DNA from: Alphaproteobacteria bacterium | Lineage (GTDB): Bacteria; Pseudomonadota; Alphaproteobacteria; Micavibrionales; Micavibrionaceae | NCBI GenBank assembly: GCA_028277665.1 | Contig: JANQFU010000058.1 | Location: forward strand, 1-35,685 | Reading direction: 5' to 3' | Length of the DNA: 35,685 nucleotides | Shown: one piece after another, positions 3,607 to 35,579 of the stretch | Numbering within the stretch: position 1 is the stretch's first letter | Layout of the letters: each line of letters begins with the position of its first letter | Notes under the pieces: model-generated | Seen by the model: the letters and a program-made list of their open reading frames with translations, nothing else | Told to the model about the DNA's origin: nothing | The model's database searches: none | Made by a program: the position numbers and the translations under genes

Positions 3607-4059
3607 ATGAGCAGGGAATATGTCGAACGCCGGGTCAGGGAAGCTCTCGACAAGCATGACGGGAGCCCGGCCCGTGCGCGCCAGCAGATTATCGCCTGGA
3701 CTTATGAGGATCCAAAGCTCCTGCAGGACTTGACGCGCCCGCATCTGACGGGGATCGTCGCCTATGCGGTAAGCAGCGTGCTCTCCCATGCCAAAGACGC
3801 GCAAGTCGAGCCCGTTGAGCCGCCGGACGAGCCGGAGATCATCGATTCGCCCTTGAAACAGGCGCCGGGAGATGCATTCGGGCTCGACCTTCTGAAAGCG
3901 CTCTCAAAGGGCGGATCGACGACGTTCGGCCTCGGCGCGTATGAAGGAGCGCCCCGGAAAACGGGGCAAGCCTCCAAACGTCATATCGAAACCATCCGCG
4001 AGATGGCCCGCAAGAGCGGTAAAAGCAGCGAAGGGGACGGATCGCCGGATGCATCCTGA
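3607..4059 (+). CDS. Conserved hypothetical protein, 150 aa
   Basis: I do not recognise a named function. The protein is soluble, has no signal peptide or membrane segment, and has two parts. An N-terminal block of about 60 residues includes ARQQIIAWTYEDPKLL and PHLTGIVAYAV and looks well ordered; I recall similar N-terminal blocks in small alphaproteobacterial proteins. After an acidic, proline-rich linker (EPVEPPDEPE) comes a Gly/Ser/Lys-rich C-terminal tail. The ATG at 3607 has AAGGA about ten bases upstream. Its stop overlaps the start of the downstream kinase gene by 11 bases, so the two are probably co-translated. A nucleic-acid or protein-binding accessory role is possible but is only a guess. 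Confidence 0.75.
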   Translation: MSREYVERRVREALDKHDGSPARARQQIIAWTYEDPKLLQDLTRPHLTGIVAYAVSSVLSHAKDAQVEPVEPPDEPEIIDSPLKQAPGDAFGLDLLKALSKGGSTTFGLGAYEGAPRKTGQASKRHIETIREMARKSGKSSEGDGSPDAS

Positions 4060-5146
4060 GTCCTTCCTGAAAGCGGAGGGCTGGGCGGATGCCGCGCGCG
4101 AGCCTCTATGCTCCGACATGTCCCCGCGGGTTTATACACGGCTGCGCAAAGAGGGGCGGGACCATACCGCCATTTTGGTTCGCATGCCGCGCGACGATTC
4201 GCCGGACGCGCTGATCGGGCATCTCTACGGGGATATGCTTTATCTGAATGCGCATTTCCGCGCGCACGGCATCCGCGTCCCGGAAATCTACGCGGCGGAT
4301 CCGGAAAACGCGCTCGCCCTTATCGAGGATTTCGGCGATCTGACCCTCGACAAGGCGCTTGCCGCAGGGGCGATCGGCAAGGCGGAAGCCTATACCCGGG
4401 CGGCACAGGCGCTTCGCGCCTTTCACGACGTTCCGTTCCCCGAAGAGAAGACGGCGGCGTTTCGTCTCAGGGTCTATGAGCGCAGCCATATCCGCAAGGC
4501 GCTGGCCTATTTCCCGCAATGGGTGTTGCCGGAAATTATAAGGGGACAGTCTATAACAGGAACCTCTGCCAAAACCCCCTTAATACAAAATTCGTCATCC
4601 CCGCGAAGGCGGGAACCTTTTCAAAACAATCTACCGAAAGATCCCCGCCTTCGCGGGGATGACGACTCATTTATAAAAGATTATACCGCAGAATGGGCGG
4701 ACGCCTGGGAAGAGGTCTTCAGGGCGCGGGAAAGCGGCGCTTGCCGCGCTCTGCTCCATGTCGATTTTTTCCCGGGCAATCTGGCTCTGCTTCCGGACGG
4801 CGAGATCGGCATTCTCGATTATCAGGGCGCGCTGGAGGGGCCGACGGCTTACGATCTTGTCAATCTGGCCGCGGACGCTCGCCGCATGCCGGACCCGGGC
4901 GTCGAGTCCGTCGTCCGGGGCGCATATGCCCCGCACCCGGACGTTCTGGAAGACTGGGCTCCTCTGGCCGCGGAATTTCATGCACGGGTCGCCGGGCAAT
5001 GCCTGAAAATCGCCGCAGAAACCGGCCAGACCCGCTATCTGGCCTTCGTTCCGTGCGCGCTCGCCCATCTCCGCCGGGATCTGGAAAGCGATCCGCGCCT
5101 TGCGCCGGTCATGCGGTTTTTACAGCGTAACGCTTTCTCCTTGTGA
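4049..5146 (+). CDS. APH-fold phosphotransferase (AmgK-like amino-sugar kinase?) with in-frame palindrome insert
   Basis: This is a protein-kinase-like small-molecule kinase of the aminoglycoside/choline phosphotransferase superfamily, 365 aa. The catalytic loop is HVDFFPGN (His237 to Asn244, HxDx4N type) and the metal-binding Asp is in ILDYQGA shortly after; an N-lobe Glu/Asp hinge (ALIEDFGDLTLDKAL) is also visible. In many alphaproteobacteria this family member is AmgK, a MurNAc/GlcNAc kinase for cell-wall recycling, but the usual partners TsaE and MurU are not beside it here, so the substrate is uncertain. Residues ~182-206 are encoded by a 72-bp palindromic repeat, with a further ~16 unusual residues before it; the flanking domain sequence resumes normally. 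ATG at 4049 was chosen because it follows the upstream gene directly and removes 36 unrelated residues. The reading frame is intact through the insert. Confidence 0.85.
   Translation: MHPESFLKAEGWADAAREPLCSDMSPRVYTRLRKEGRDHTAILVRMPRDDSPDALIGHLYGDMLYLNAHFRAHGIRVPEIYAADPENALALIEDFGDLTLDKALAAGAIGKAEAYTRAAQALRAFHDVPFPEEKTAAFRLRVYERSHIRKALAYFPQWVLPEIIRGQSITGTSAKTPLIQNSSSPRRREPFQNNLPKDPRLRGDDDSFIKDYTAEWADAWEEVFRARESGACRALLHVDFFPGNLALLPDGEIGILDYQGALEGPTAYDLVNLAADARRMPDPGVESVVRGAYAPHPDVLEDWAPLAAEFHARVAGQCLKIAAETGQTRYLAFVPCALAHLRRDLESDPRLAPVMRFLQRNAFSL
4593..4664 (+). repeat. 72-bp palindromic element inserted in frame in the kinase gene
   Basis: The ends CGTCATCCCCGCGAAGGCGG and its complement at 4645-4664 form long hairpin arms around a short AT-rich centre. 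The length is 24 codons. It encodes SSPRRREP near the start and KDPRLRGDD at the end. A second 72-bp copy sits in the troA-like gene at 27108-27179 in the same codon phase. It starts at the second base of a codon in both genes. Confidence 0.92.
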
Positions 5147-16717: not shown

Positions 16718-16861
16718 TCACTCTTTCATTCCACACTACCCGACAACACGACATAACGAGATGAAATATAAAGTCTTTTTAACCGAAGGTGCTGAGGACG
16801 CAGAGGAAAACAGAACGAGAATCGCAAAAACATACGCAAATACGTCATCCTCTGGCTTGTC
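16718..16861. repeat. Intergenic repeat debris between tRNA-Val and the IS remnant
   Basis: The stretch includes CACACTACCCGACA (16732-16745), which recurs inverted near 35445, and an ACCGAAGGTGCTGAGGACGC-like tract at about 16782 that resembles the GCGCCTCTGCGG tract near 35400. The last 19 bases (16843-16861) match the left part of the palindrome at 19840. No gene is supported here; the small open frame starting at 16761 lacks any motif. Confidence 0.55.
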
Positions 16862-17280
16862 CCACTACTGTCCGGTATTGTCGAGAGGCCTTTTGCGCAT
16901 GAGGTTCAGGCAAATCAGGTGTGCGAATGTGCTTGCCGATTGTACCGAAGACCGGGTTTGTTGAACGGCTCCGAGCAACAGATAAGCGATCAGCGCGGTA
17001 AAAACCTGAACGCGCACCGCATTTTCCGAGGTTCCGATGAATCGCCTGATTTTCAGATTTTGTTTGATCCGCTTGAAGAACAGCTCTATTTTCCGGCGCT
17101 GTTTGTAGAGGATCCCTGCGAGAGGGTCGAATTCATGCTGGACAAGCCGGGCTTCGGCATTCCGGAAGCGGCTGCGCCCGGGCCGGTTGTGTTCATCGGT
17201 GTAGGTAATCTCTATGTCCCGGGCGCGCGAGAACCGGCGCGCCGTCCTGTATGATATCGCGGATCATGGGGGTGCGCTCC
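16862..17280 (-). mobile_element. IS4-family insertion sequence remnant: 3' end of transposase and terminal repeat
   Basis: On the minus strand the frame ending at stop 16865-16867 reads RDIEITYTDEHNRPGRSRFR, then KQRRKIELFFKRIKQNLKIR and FIGTSENAVRVQVFTALIAY. Tyr-x2-Arg-x3-Glu-x6-Lys in YKQRRKIELFFKRIK is the C1 signature of IS4-type DDE transposases and supplies the catalytic Glu. Only about 135 C-terminal codons remain; the two catalytic Asp residues and the other IS end are missing, so it cannot transpose. The outer end CCACTACTGTCCGGT matches the ends of the small element at 35074-35254. The break point is close to the stop codon of the next gene. Confidence 0.85.
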
Positions 17281-19791: not shown

Positions 19792-19839
19792 TCGCCTGAA
19801 AAAATTCGATTACACTAACTTTTTGATATAATTTAATTT

Positions 19840-19924
19840 CGTCATCCTCCGACTTGTTCGGAGGATCCATTTATCCGCTCGCGATAACTTTGGAATGGAT
19901 CCTCTGCATGCGCAAAGGATGACG
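19840..19924. repeat. Intergenic palindromic repeat, intact copy
   Basis: It begins CGTCATCCTCCGACTTGTT and continues CGGAGGATCC, giving a CCTCCGA/TCGGAGG hairpin, and closes with GGATCCTC and GGATGACG. The outer CGTCATCC and GGATGACG are also inverted, so the unit is a palindrome about 85 bp long. Two interrupted copies of its left part occur at 16843-16861 and 35055-35073, each followed immediately by an IS end. The rest of 19792-20070 holds no gene; a partial repeat GGATCCTCCGCCTTCTT lies at about 20038. Confidence 0.8.
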
Positions 19925-25748: not shown

Positions 25749-26509
25749 GCCTGCGCCCCCCGTCCGAGCAAAAGCTCGCCGCCGTAGGCTTTGCGGAGGT
25801 TGTCGTCGGTAAAGACGTTTCCAACGGGCCCGGCCGCGACGGCGCTCTGGTTCAGGATCAGGACGTCGTCGAAGTAATCCCGCACGGTGGCAAGATCGTG
25901 ATGTACGACCAGAACCGTATGATTGCGGCGTTTCAGGCCTGCGAAGAGATCGAGAATCGTGTGTTCGGTGGCGGCGTCCACACCGGCGAAAGGCTCGTCC
26001 ATCAAATAAAATTCGGCGTCCTGCGCAAGCGCCCGGGCGATAAAAACCCGCTGCTGCTGGCCGCCGGACAGGCGTCCGATCTGGCGTTCTGCGATATCGG
26101 CCAGTCCGACCTGTTCGAGGCAGTGCATCGCTTTTTCGGTATGTTTGCGGCGCACCGGCAGGCACCAGCCGATTTTTCGGTACAGCCCCATTGTCACAAT
26201 GTCGAGCGCGCTCGCAGGAAAGGTCCAGTCCACGCTTGTGCGCTGCGGAATATAGGCCATTTTCTCGCGAATGGCGGCGACGGGCCGGCCGAAGAACAGG
26301 ACGATCCCGCGATCTTTGCGGTGAAGTCCGAGGATCGTTTTCAGGAAGGTCGATTTCCCGGCTCCGTTCGGCCCGACAACCGCGCCGAGCCGTCCGCGGC
26401 ATAAAGCAAAGTGAACCCGCTCAAGTGCGGGATTGCCCTGATAGCCGGCGCTCAGACCGCGCACCGACAAAGCCGGATGAGAAGAGGTCGATGCAGGACA
26501 GGACGTCAT
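25745..26509 (-). CDS. troB: Zn/Mn ABC transporter ATP-binding protein
   Basis: A 254-residue ATPase subunit with Walker A GPNGAGKST, Q-loop region YIPQRTSVDWTFPASALDIV, signature LSGGQQQRVFIARAL, Walker B FYLMDEPFAGVD and switch His in VVHHDLATV. The segment after the Q-loop (RTSVDWTFP) is characteristic of the manganese/zinc family. The ATG overlaps the binding-protein stop by ATGA. All motifs are intact, so the transporter should be functional. Confidence 0.95.
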   Translation of the reverse strand: MTSCPASTSSHPALSVRGLSAGYQGNPALERVHFALCRGRLGAVVGPNGAGKSTFLKTILGLHRKDRGIVLFFGRPVAAIREKMAYIPQRTSVDWTFPASALDIVTMGLYRKIGWCLPVRRKHTEKAMHCLEQVGLADIAERQIGRLSGGQQQRVFIARALAQDAEFYLMDEPFAGVDAATEHTILDLFAGLKRRNHTVLVVHHDLATVRDYFDDVLILNQSAVAAGPVGNVFTDDNLRKAYGGELLLGRGAQA

Positions 26510-27525
26510 GGTTTTACATCCCCTCCGAGCGCTTCGAGGATGACCGAAAGATTATGCCGGACCATGCCGATATAGGTTCCTTCAGGCGTTCCGGCGGGGC
26601 CCATCGCATCGGAATACAGTTCTCCGCCGATTTTAAGGTCATGCCCGCGGGCGCGGGCGCCTTCAATCAGTGCTTTGACATGGCGGGGGCTGACGGAGCT
26701 TTCAATAAAAACAGCCGGAATTTGCCGGTCGACAATCAGGCTGACAAGTTCCTCGATCCGGCGTAGGCCGGATTCGCTTTCCGTCGAAATTCCCTGGATC
26801 CCGTGGACCTCGATCCCGTACGCTTTCCCGAAATACCCGAACGCATCATGTGCCGTTACCAGAATGCGCCGGTTTGCGGGAAGGGACGCAATTCCCGCGC
26901 GGACGTCCCGGTCGAGATCCGCAAGCGCCTGAAGATAATGCGCGCTTGCCGCCCCGATGGCCTCTTTGTGTTCCGGCAGGGCGTCCTGCAAGGCTCCCGC
27001 AAGTCCTGTCGCGGCTTTACGCCAAAGCCCGGCATCCATCCAGATATGCGGATCGAGGGCGTTATTTTTTCCCTCATCTATGGAGGATCTTATGAATAAA
27101 TTTTCTTCGTCATCCCCGCGAAGGCGGGGATCTTTTCGTTCTGTATTATCTAAAGATTCCCGCTTTCGCGGGAATGACGCTTTTTGTTTTTTGATGAAAT
27201 CCGACATCGCGTGAACGGGTTTTTGCTTTTTCAGTTTGTCCAGAAGACCCGGCATCCGGCCTTCGAGGTGAAGGCCGTTATAAAGGACGATATCCGCGCG
27301 TTGCAGGCGGACGGTGTCGGCGCGCGTCGGGCGGTATAAATGGGGATCGACTCCTTCATGCATGATGGACTCGACGCGGATTTCCGGGACGGGACCCAGG
27401 AGATTGCGTGCCGTATCGGCGATCTGTGCCGTTGTCGTGACAACCAGGATGTCATCCGCGTTTGCGGCCCGCAACGGCGCGAAAGAGGCCAGACAGCAAA
27501 AAAACGTCATCAATAGCAGGCGCAT
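26506..27525 (-). CDS. troA: TroA-like Zn/Mn-binding periplasmic protein with in-frame palindrome insert
   Basis: The 339-residue protein has an N-terminal signal sequence (MRLLLMTFFCCLASFAPLRA) without an obvious lipobox. Metal ligands are His62 in DPHLY, His160 in DPHIW, His226 in VTAHDAFGYFGKAYG and Asp306 in LYSDAMG; the His-His-His-Asp set and the sequence resemble Treponema TroA (Zn/Mn). The distance between the first two ligands is 98 residues, against about 65-72 in known relatives. The excess is explained by residues ~116-140, encoded by a 72-bp palindromic repeat. AGGA before the ATG sets the start. It is the first gene of an overlapping five-gene operon. No clear Zur- or Fur-type palindrome was seen upstream. 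Confidence 0.92.
   Translation of the reverse strand: MRLLLMTFFCCLASFAPLRAANADDILVVTTTAQIADTARNLLGPVPEIRVESIMHEGVDPHLYRPTRADTVRLQRADIVLYNGLHLEGRMPGLLDKLKKQKPVHAMSDFIKKQKASFPRKRESLDNTERKDPRLRGDDEENLFIRSSIDEGKNNALDPHIWMDAGLWRKAATGLAGALQDALPEHKEAIGAASAHYLQALADLDRDVRAGIASLPANRRILVTAHDAFGYFGKAYGIEVHGIQGISTESESGLRRIEELVSLIVDRQIPAVFIESSVSPRHVKALIEGARARGHDLKIGGELYSDAMGPAGTPEGTYIGMVRHNLSVILEALGGDVKP
27108..27179 (-). repeat. 72-bp palindromic element inserted in frame in troA
   Basis: The arms CGTCATCCCCGCGAAGGCGG and CGCTTTCGCGGGAATGACG pair imperfectly. In the troA frame it encodes SFPRKRESLD, then ERKDPRLRGDDE, in the same codon phase as the copy in the kinase gene at 4593-4664. In the other two frames on the coding strand a stop occurs within the element, so only this phase could keep the gene open. 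Confidence 0.92.
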
Positions 27526-27554
27526 TATTCCGTTCCTGTTTGTCAGGGGGCTTG

Positions 27555-27846
27555 ACTTTATTAACCCGAACTATGGATAAGAGTGCTTTTAAGTCTTATA
27601 AACCAACCGTCATCCCGGCGAAAGCCGGGATCCAGAGAAACGACAACAACCATACAGCGAAAACGCTGCTATATTCTATTTAACCACCAAGAACACTAAG
27701 GGTACCAAGTTCTCCTTTAATCACAGATATCTTAGTGTGCTTAGTGGTTTTAAAAACTGGATCCCGGCTTTCGCCGGGATGAGGGCTGGTTTTGTCGGTT
27801 TTGTAACTCAATTCTTATCCATAGCCCAAGTTTATTAATGTCATTA
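27555..27846. repeat. Nested palindrome made from two opposed ~85-bp repeats
   Basis: Left part (27555-27640) and right part (27752-27846) are inverted copies of the repeat found at both window ends, each with a GGATCCCGGCTTTCGCCGGG-type core. Between them lies a second inverted pair, ACCACCAAGAACACTAAG (about 27683) against CTTAGTGTGCTTAGTGGT (about 27732). The whole 290 bp could fold as one long cruciform. The rest of 27526-27974 contains no gene; no clear promoter was recognised. Confidence 0.8.
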
Positions 27847-34958: not shown

Positions 34959-35054
34959 CGTTCGTTCCGCGCAATGGAGTAAGGCCATAGGTGTATGAAC
35001 CGTGAAATCGCTGTAGAACATGCGTATTTTTAGGGCGCTGAAATATTAGGATTC

Positions 35055-35340
35055 CGTCATCCTCCGATTTGTTCCACTACTGTCCGGTTTAGCATAGACC
35101 GAACTCCATGACTATTTGTCCTGGGTCTGGAGACGGCGGGTCTGGCGACTGGCGGTCTTGACCATGTATGCGAACAGATTGCCGCAAAACGTCTGAATAA
35201 CAGTAGGATCAATGCCGTGCGCCTTGTCCACTCATTTAAACCGGACAGTAGTGGCGAAGGCGGAGGATCCCTTTTGAAGTCGGCGCGGGCGGACGAATGG
35301 ATCCTCCGGACTCAAGCGATGCTTGGCCGGAGGATGACGG
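35055..35340. repeat. Palindromic repeat interrupted by a small IS-derived element
   Basis: The left part CGTCATCCTCCGATTTGTT (35055-35073) matches the first 19 bases of the palindrome at 19840. It is followed immediately by the IS-derived element. After that come CGGAGGATCC, and later GGATCCTCC and GGCCGGAGGATGACGG, which fit the right part of a palindrome of this type. The stretch 34959-35054 has no gene and no terminator that I can see for the coiled-coil gene. Confidence 0.75.
35074..35254. mobile_element. 181-bp non-autonomous IS-derived element with 18-bp terminal inverted repeats
   Basis: The ends CCACTACTGTCCGGTTTA and TAAACCGGACAGTAGTGG are perfect 18-bp inverted repeats and match the outer end of the IS4-family remnant at 16862. 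The interior has no transposase. It has one 39-codon frame on the minus strand (35112-35231, GTG start) reading KAHGIDPTVIQTFCGNLF then YMVKTASRQTRRLQTQDK, of unknown nature. It is best described as a MITE-like deletion derivative that would need a transposase in trans. Confidence 0.85.
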
Positions 35341-35469
35341 GAATAAAAAAATCTCTGCGTCCTTCCTCCTTCGCCCTTCGGGCTTCGGCGGGACAGGCTG
35401 CGCCTCTGCGGTAAAAAATAAATTGTTTCAAAGCACTACAGAATTGTGTCGGGTAGTGTGCTTTCATTC
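35341..35469. repeat. Intergenic repeat debris
   Basis: The stretch contains CCCTTCGGGCTTCGGCGGGA at about 35377 and GCGCCTCTGCGG at about 35400, then TGTCGGGTAGTGTG (35446-35459), which is the inverse of CACACTACCCGACA near tRNA-Val. No gene is supported. Confidence 0.55.
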
Positions 35470-35579
35470 ATTAACCTGAACTATGGATAAGAATAAGTTA
35501 CAGAACCAACAAAACCAACCGTCATCCCGGCGAAAGCCGGGATCCAGTCATGGAGTTGTTTAAACGCGAAGGTCCGGAG
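35470..35579 (+). repeat. Dispersed ~110-bp palindrome-containing repeat, right copy
   Basis: This is the inverted partner of the segment at 1-101. It starts TTAACCTGAACTATGGATAA at 35471, includes the hairpin core CCCGGCGAAAGCCGGGATCC and ends GGTCCGGAG. Relative to the left copy it has an eight-base insertion in the AC-rich part and a few substitutions. Confidence 0.88.

Follow-up and report, generated by a model that had tools for sequence, protein, structure and literature searches.

A CGTC-1 REP dimer, in many copies nested within a small TA-flanked element, lies in frame inside a troA-like gene of an uncultured alphaproteobacterium

The stretch of DNA analysed here (35,685 nucleotides, hereafter the window) is a single contig of a 2.27-Mb draft genome in 114 contigs. 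A troA-like gene on the reverse strand (26506–27525) encodes a metal-binding protein of 339 residues (Pfam ZnuA/TroA family PF01297) and is adjoined by open transporter ORFs, while an APH-type phosphotransferase (kinase) gene of 401 residues lies on the forward strand (3941–5146). Within the troA-like gene is a palindrome of exactly 72 bp (27108–27179, reverse strand), read as SFPRKRESLDNTERKDPRLRGDD, both arms of which equal the consensus with zero mismatches. The kinase gene carries a second 72-bp copy on the forward strand (4593–4664), and arm matches number 8 in the window vs 0 in shuffled sequence. The first base falls at codon position 2 in both genes, and in the TroA copy both of the other coding-strand phases contain stops. 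A sequence-only reading of this DNA had reported this length, shared phase and pair of blocked frames, all of which are borne out by the coordinates and translations; it went on to propose that selection for the one open, hydrophilic frame had produced a domesticated surface loop.

The palindrome belongs to a published class, the CGTC-1 REP sequences, two of which are joined here head to head. One end bears the CGTC tag (CGTC or TGTC across the collected cores), and there is an 8-bp stem that starts with A-T pairs and a 4-base loop (ATTCCCGC-GAAA-GCGGGAAT, compared with PMC3733652). The mostly head-to-head pairing of the class is seen in 46 strict dimers across the genome, where the half-site pattern occurs at 317 places and its reversed control at 0. 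The tail is CTT in the dimer subfamily and CCA in a second hairpin family of the window, the class tail being mostly CCA. CGTC-1 REPs have been reported from Alphaproteobacteria including Micavibrio, and intragenic CGTC dimers coding for 20–30 residues have been listed (Di Nocera et al., 2013; PMC3733652). Because tag, stem, loop and pairing all fit these REPs, elements of this type, and their occurrence within genes, are already published. Among 64 cores gathered by searches and from sequence stretches, a partial inventory of the genome, 37 are 72 bp long, 12 are 71 bp and the others range from 68 to 85 bp; 72 bp is the commonest core length, but it is not the size of the whole insert.

Other repeats are dispersed in the window. 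The second hairpin family (1–101, 27545–27840 and 35455–35579) consists of CGTCATCCCGGCGAAAGCCGGGATCCAG hairpins with flanks containing TTATCCATAG, and two of its copies form 97% inverted repeats at both contig ends. A further repeat, beginning CGTCATCCTCCGACTTGTTC, is present in three copies (16827–16876, 19824–19859 and 35039–35088).

Many of the dimers sit within an outer element that has GGAACCTCTGCAAA inverted repeats and TA flanks, commonly in the order TA, GGAACCTCTGCAAAAGCCCCTTTAATACAAAAAT, core, AAAAAGGAATTTGCAGAGGTTCC, TA. Both terminal repeats are kept in 17 copies and one in 13, and the composites with both are 128–139 bp long, most often 132 bp. Terminal-repeat sites number 41 vs 1 in the control. 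The kinase copy retains the left arm (4559–4592, forward strand; terminal repeat GGAACCTCTGCC), and the right side of the TroA copy is possibly a worn right arm, not clearly recognisable as such. The outer element has several features of a MITE, being short, present in many copies and bounded by terminal inverted repeats, with no transposase gene inside, and TA is found on both sides of many copies, as observed within this one genome. A 60-bp copy on contig C114 (L235) has both terminal repeats without the REP dimer, and in other copies the repeats enclose just one REP or a longer stretch. This is a clear nested case, with a dimer-free outer element present in the same genome. The outer shell appears to be lineage-specific, because 37 relatives match the 132-bp element over the core region alone. 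Viral contigs gave no match to the outer terminal repeat, and among plasmids a single Azospirillum record matched, over the core. Longer elements elsewhere in the genome (L237:385–690, and L123:2317, L236:2077 and L243:488 onward) begin with the same terminal repeat and have a different filling with several hairpins.

No transposase with ends matching the outer element was found in a search that covered the IS630 type, of which the genome gave one gene (L248; G000:C103:22140–22595). This gene is split over two frames near a contig end, and it was rejected as the mover since its ends (CTAGTACCCCG) differ from those of the outer element. The single Y1_Tnp (RAYT-type) transposase gene of the genome is located elsewhere (L089; G000:C70:7068–7367). 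Neither gene is tied to the element by the evidence here, and CGTC REPs are not known to have a transposase.

The addition to the host proteins is larger than the palindrome itself. The metal ligands His62 and His160 are 98 residues apart in TroA vs an aligned 65 in Treponema pallidum TroA (1toa), a difference of +33, and two homologs from the same family have 8–9 residues where the query has 41. TroA is ~33 residues (99 bp) longer than its homologs, and therefore the net insertion exceeds the palindrome; it covers approximately 27082–27180 on the reverse strand (residues 116–148), with ends uncertain by a few residues. The sequence-only reading had put this spacing at about 26–33 residues more than expected, which agrees with the measured value and exceeds 24 residues because the 72-bp core covers only part of the addition. 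Similar excesses are found in the kinase (~34–36 residues, a segment that its homologs lack), alanyl-tRNA synthetase (~27 residues) and RnhB (~35 residues), and in all four proteins the extra length falls exactly at the element. In the alanyl-tRNA synthetase gene (L090:2560–2690), the host-like flanks of the 70-bp core form an inverted repeat (CGCGCGATTGTTCCCCTTCAC / GTGAGTGGTAAGGGAACGATCGCGCG) that is unrelated to the common outer element.

An AlphaFold model of TroA built from 33 aligned homologs has a mean pLDDT of 84.6 and a predicted fold that matches 1toa, with the metal-ligand motifs invariant in the alignment. Values of pLDDT below 50 are confined to residues 116–153, and so the TroA insert is, on this model, most likely a tolerated, disordered solvent loop, the palindrome probably being translated as a floppy extra loop in a metal-uptake protein. 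The idea of a surface loop is upheld to this extent for TroA; the kinase model, predicted from a single sequence without an alignment, is uninformative (mean pLDDT 36).

The shared codon phase was examined against 29 copies with 72-bp cores outside genes, in-gene copies and two doubtful ORFs being left out. Read forward, 7 of these copies lack stops in phase 1, 24 in phase 2 and 1 in phase 3; read in reverse, the counts are 14, 25 and 0. The TGA within the terminal ATGACG closes phase 3 in 27/29, and the rule shifts with core length, phase 2 being closed in 70-bp cores. Seven genes contain in-frame copies, an arrangement that is known here from their sequences and recalls the Rickettsia palindromic elements. 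Five of these copies are in phase 2, namely those in the kinase, TroA, RnhB and MalQ genes (all forward) and the reversed copy in SufD, and two are in phase 1 (DusA, forward, and alanyl-tRNA synthetase, with its 70-bp core). Two of the seven (MalQ and SufD) lie in less conserved N-terminal regions. An open frame without Pfam support (L120:2580) was not counted as in-gene, and a copy beside a SpoU methylase (L146:2565) was dropped, as the insert is probably upstream of the true start. The phases in genes follow the open frames of the copies outside them, and the five forward 72-bp cases, split 4 to 1 between phases 2 and 1, are what openness alone predicts, so that a phase shared by two genes carries little evidential weight. 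Among the copies collected, the tally of insert phases shows neither an even spread nor a single phase, the spread being that expected from the open frames. If coding density is ~85%, as assumed here, then the ~7/64 collected copies found in genes represent a strong depletion, and most insertions would have been removed from genes.

These observations are best explained, with a probability of roughly 85%, by a selfish mobile insertion that is tolerated by the host protein and filtered by stop codons. The REP dimer (72 bp here) would be cargo within a small outer element defined by its GGAACCTCTGCAAA repeats and TA ends, and the shell presumably moved in the past, through some enzyme acting at TA sites. 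A copy in a gene would persist only where the length it adds is divisible by three, no stop codon comes into frame and a loop can be accommodated. One phase is closed by the TGA of the terminal ATGACG and another often by a stop in the spacer, so that most survivors would be in phase 2 and some in phase 1, and some in-gene copies may have been trimmed later. In TroA the outcome would be a loop of ~33 residues, disordered, basic and hydrophilic, in a stretch of variable length that lies between two metal ligands; it is presumably nearly neutral, in a protein that is presumably still made and working.

Alternatively, the element itself may have been kept open in one frame to survive in genes, as has been proposed for Rickettsia palindromic elements. 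Phase 2 is open across nearly the whole composite in 12/17 copies with both terminal repeats and in 24/29 other 72-bp cores, as this would predict. However, the copies share ancestry, so that their openness may be a single inherited accident; only ~7/64 collected copies are inside genes, and composite lengths of 128–139 bp mean that the exit frame is not fixed. Such adaptation is, in our judgement, unlikely, and it is equally doubtful that evolution has made the composite a 'protein-safe' parasite, in which a REP dimer acquired an outer mobile shell and was kept open over most of its length in one frame, leaving genes usable as landing sites. Domestication by the host, which would keep the hydrophilic frame since the peptide is useful in TroA and the kinase, could account for the phase shared by two unrelated genes of the window and for the position of the TroA insert between metal ligands. 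Yet the phase bias is intrinsic to the element, being present already outside genes, where the phase-2 peptide is equally hydrophilic; the copies in genes occur in two phases and in either orientation (DusA and alanyl-tRNA synthetase in phase 1, SufD reversed), and the genes hit have no common function. Selection for one open frame and the domestication that was drawn from it are accordingly very unlikely. Decay of the host genes or faulty assembly, with open frames that are accidental, might be suspected in a fragmented draft of 114 contigs, but this is hardly credible when the TroA and kinase ORFs run open from end to end and have conserved residues on either side, open transporter ORFs adjoin troA, and alanyl-tRNA synthetase, which is normally essential, likewise carries an insert.

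A same-phase pattern of coding palindromes can thus arise from the stop codons of an element and the removal of harmful insertions, and phase bias alone is therefore no proof of domestication. The tolerated insertion described here adds a new lineage to a known type of selfish palindrome; it is a clean counter-example and otherwise ordinary. It resembles the published CGTC-1 REP dimers in its CGTC tag, 8-bp stem, 4-base loop, head-to-head pairing, occurrence in Alphaproteobacteria and intragenic dimers, but differs in its tail (CTT rather than the usual CCA) and in its position inside a lineage-specific outer element (PMC3733652). Like Rickettsia palindromic elements (RPEs), it is a palindrome that lies in frame within genes that are unrelated and presumably working, although RPEs enter genes far more often (PMC2229807; PMC10969869). 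RPE-6 has been equated with CGTC-1 (PMC3733652); the likeness to RPEs drawn here is one of description. Correia/NEMIS and other TA-flanked MITEs are also small inverted-repeat elements with TA ends, but their terminal repeats differ, and the open version of Correia elements occurs in genes while the stop-rich version almost never does (PMC2229807). A REP within a larger inverted-repeat element is known from Anabaena variabilis GTAG-15, Halothiobacillus neapolitanus CGTC-1 (PMC3733652) and Coxiella QMITE2 (PMC5896051), all with other sequences. In A. variabilis and H. neapolitanus no outer element without the dimer was found (PMC3733652); one is present here, and this nested case bears on how CGTC REPs spread.
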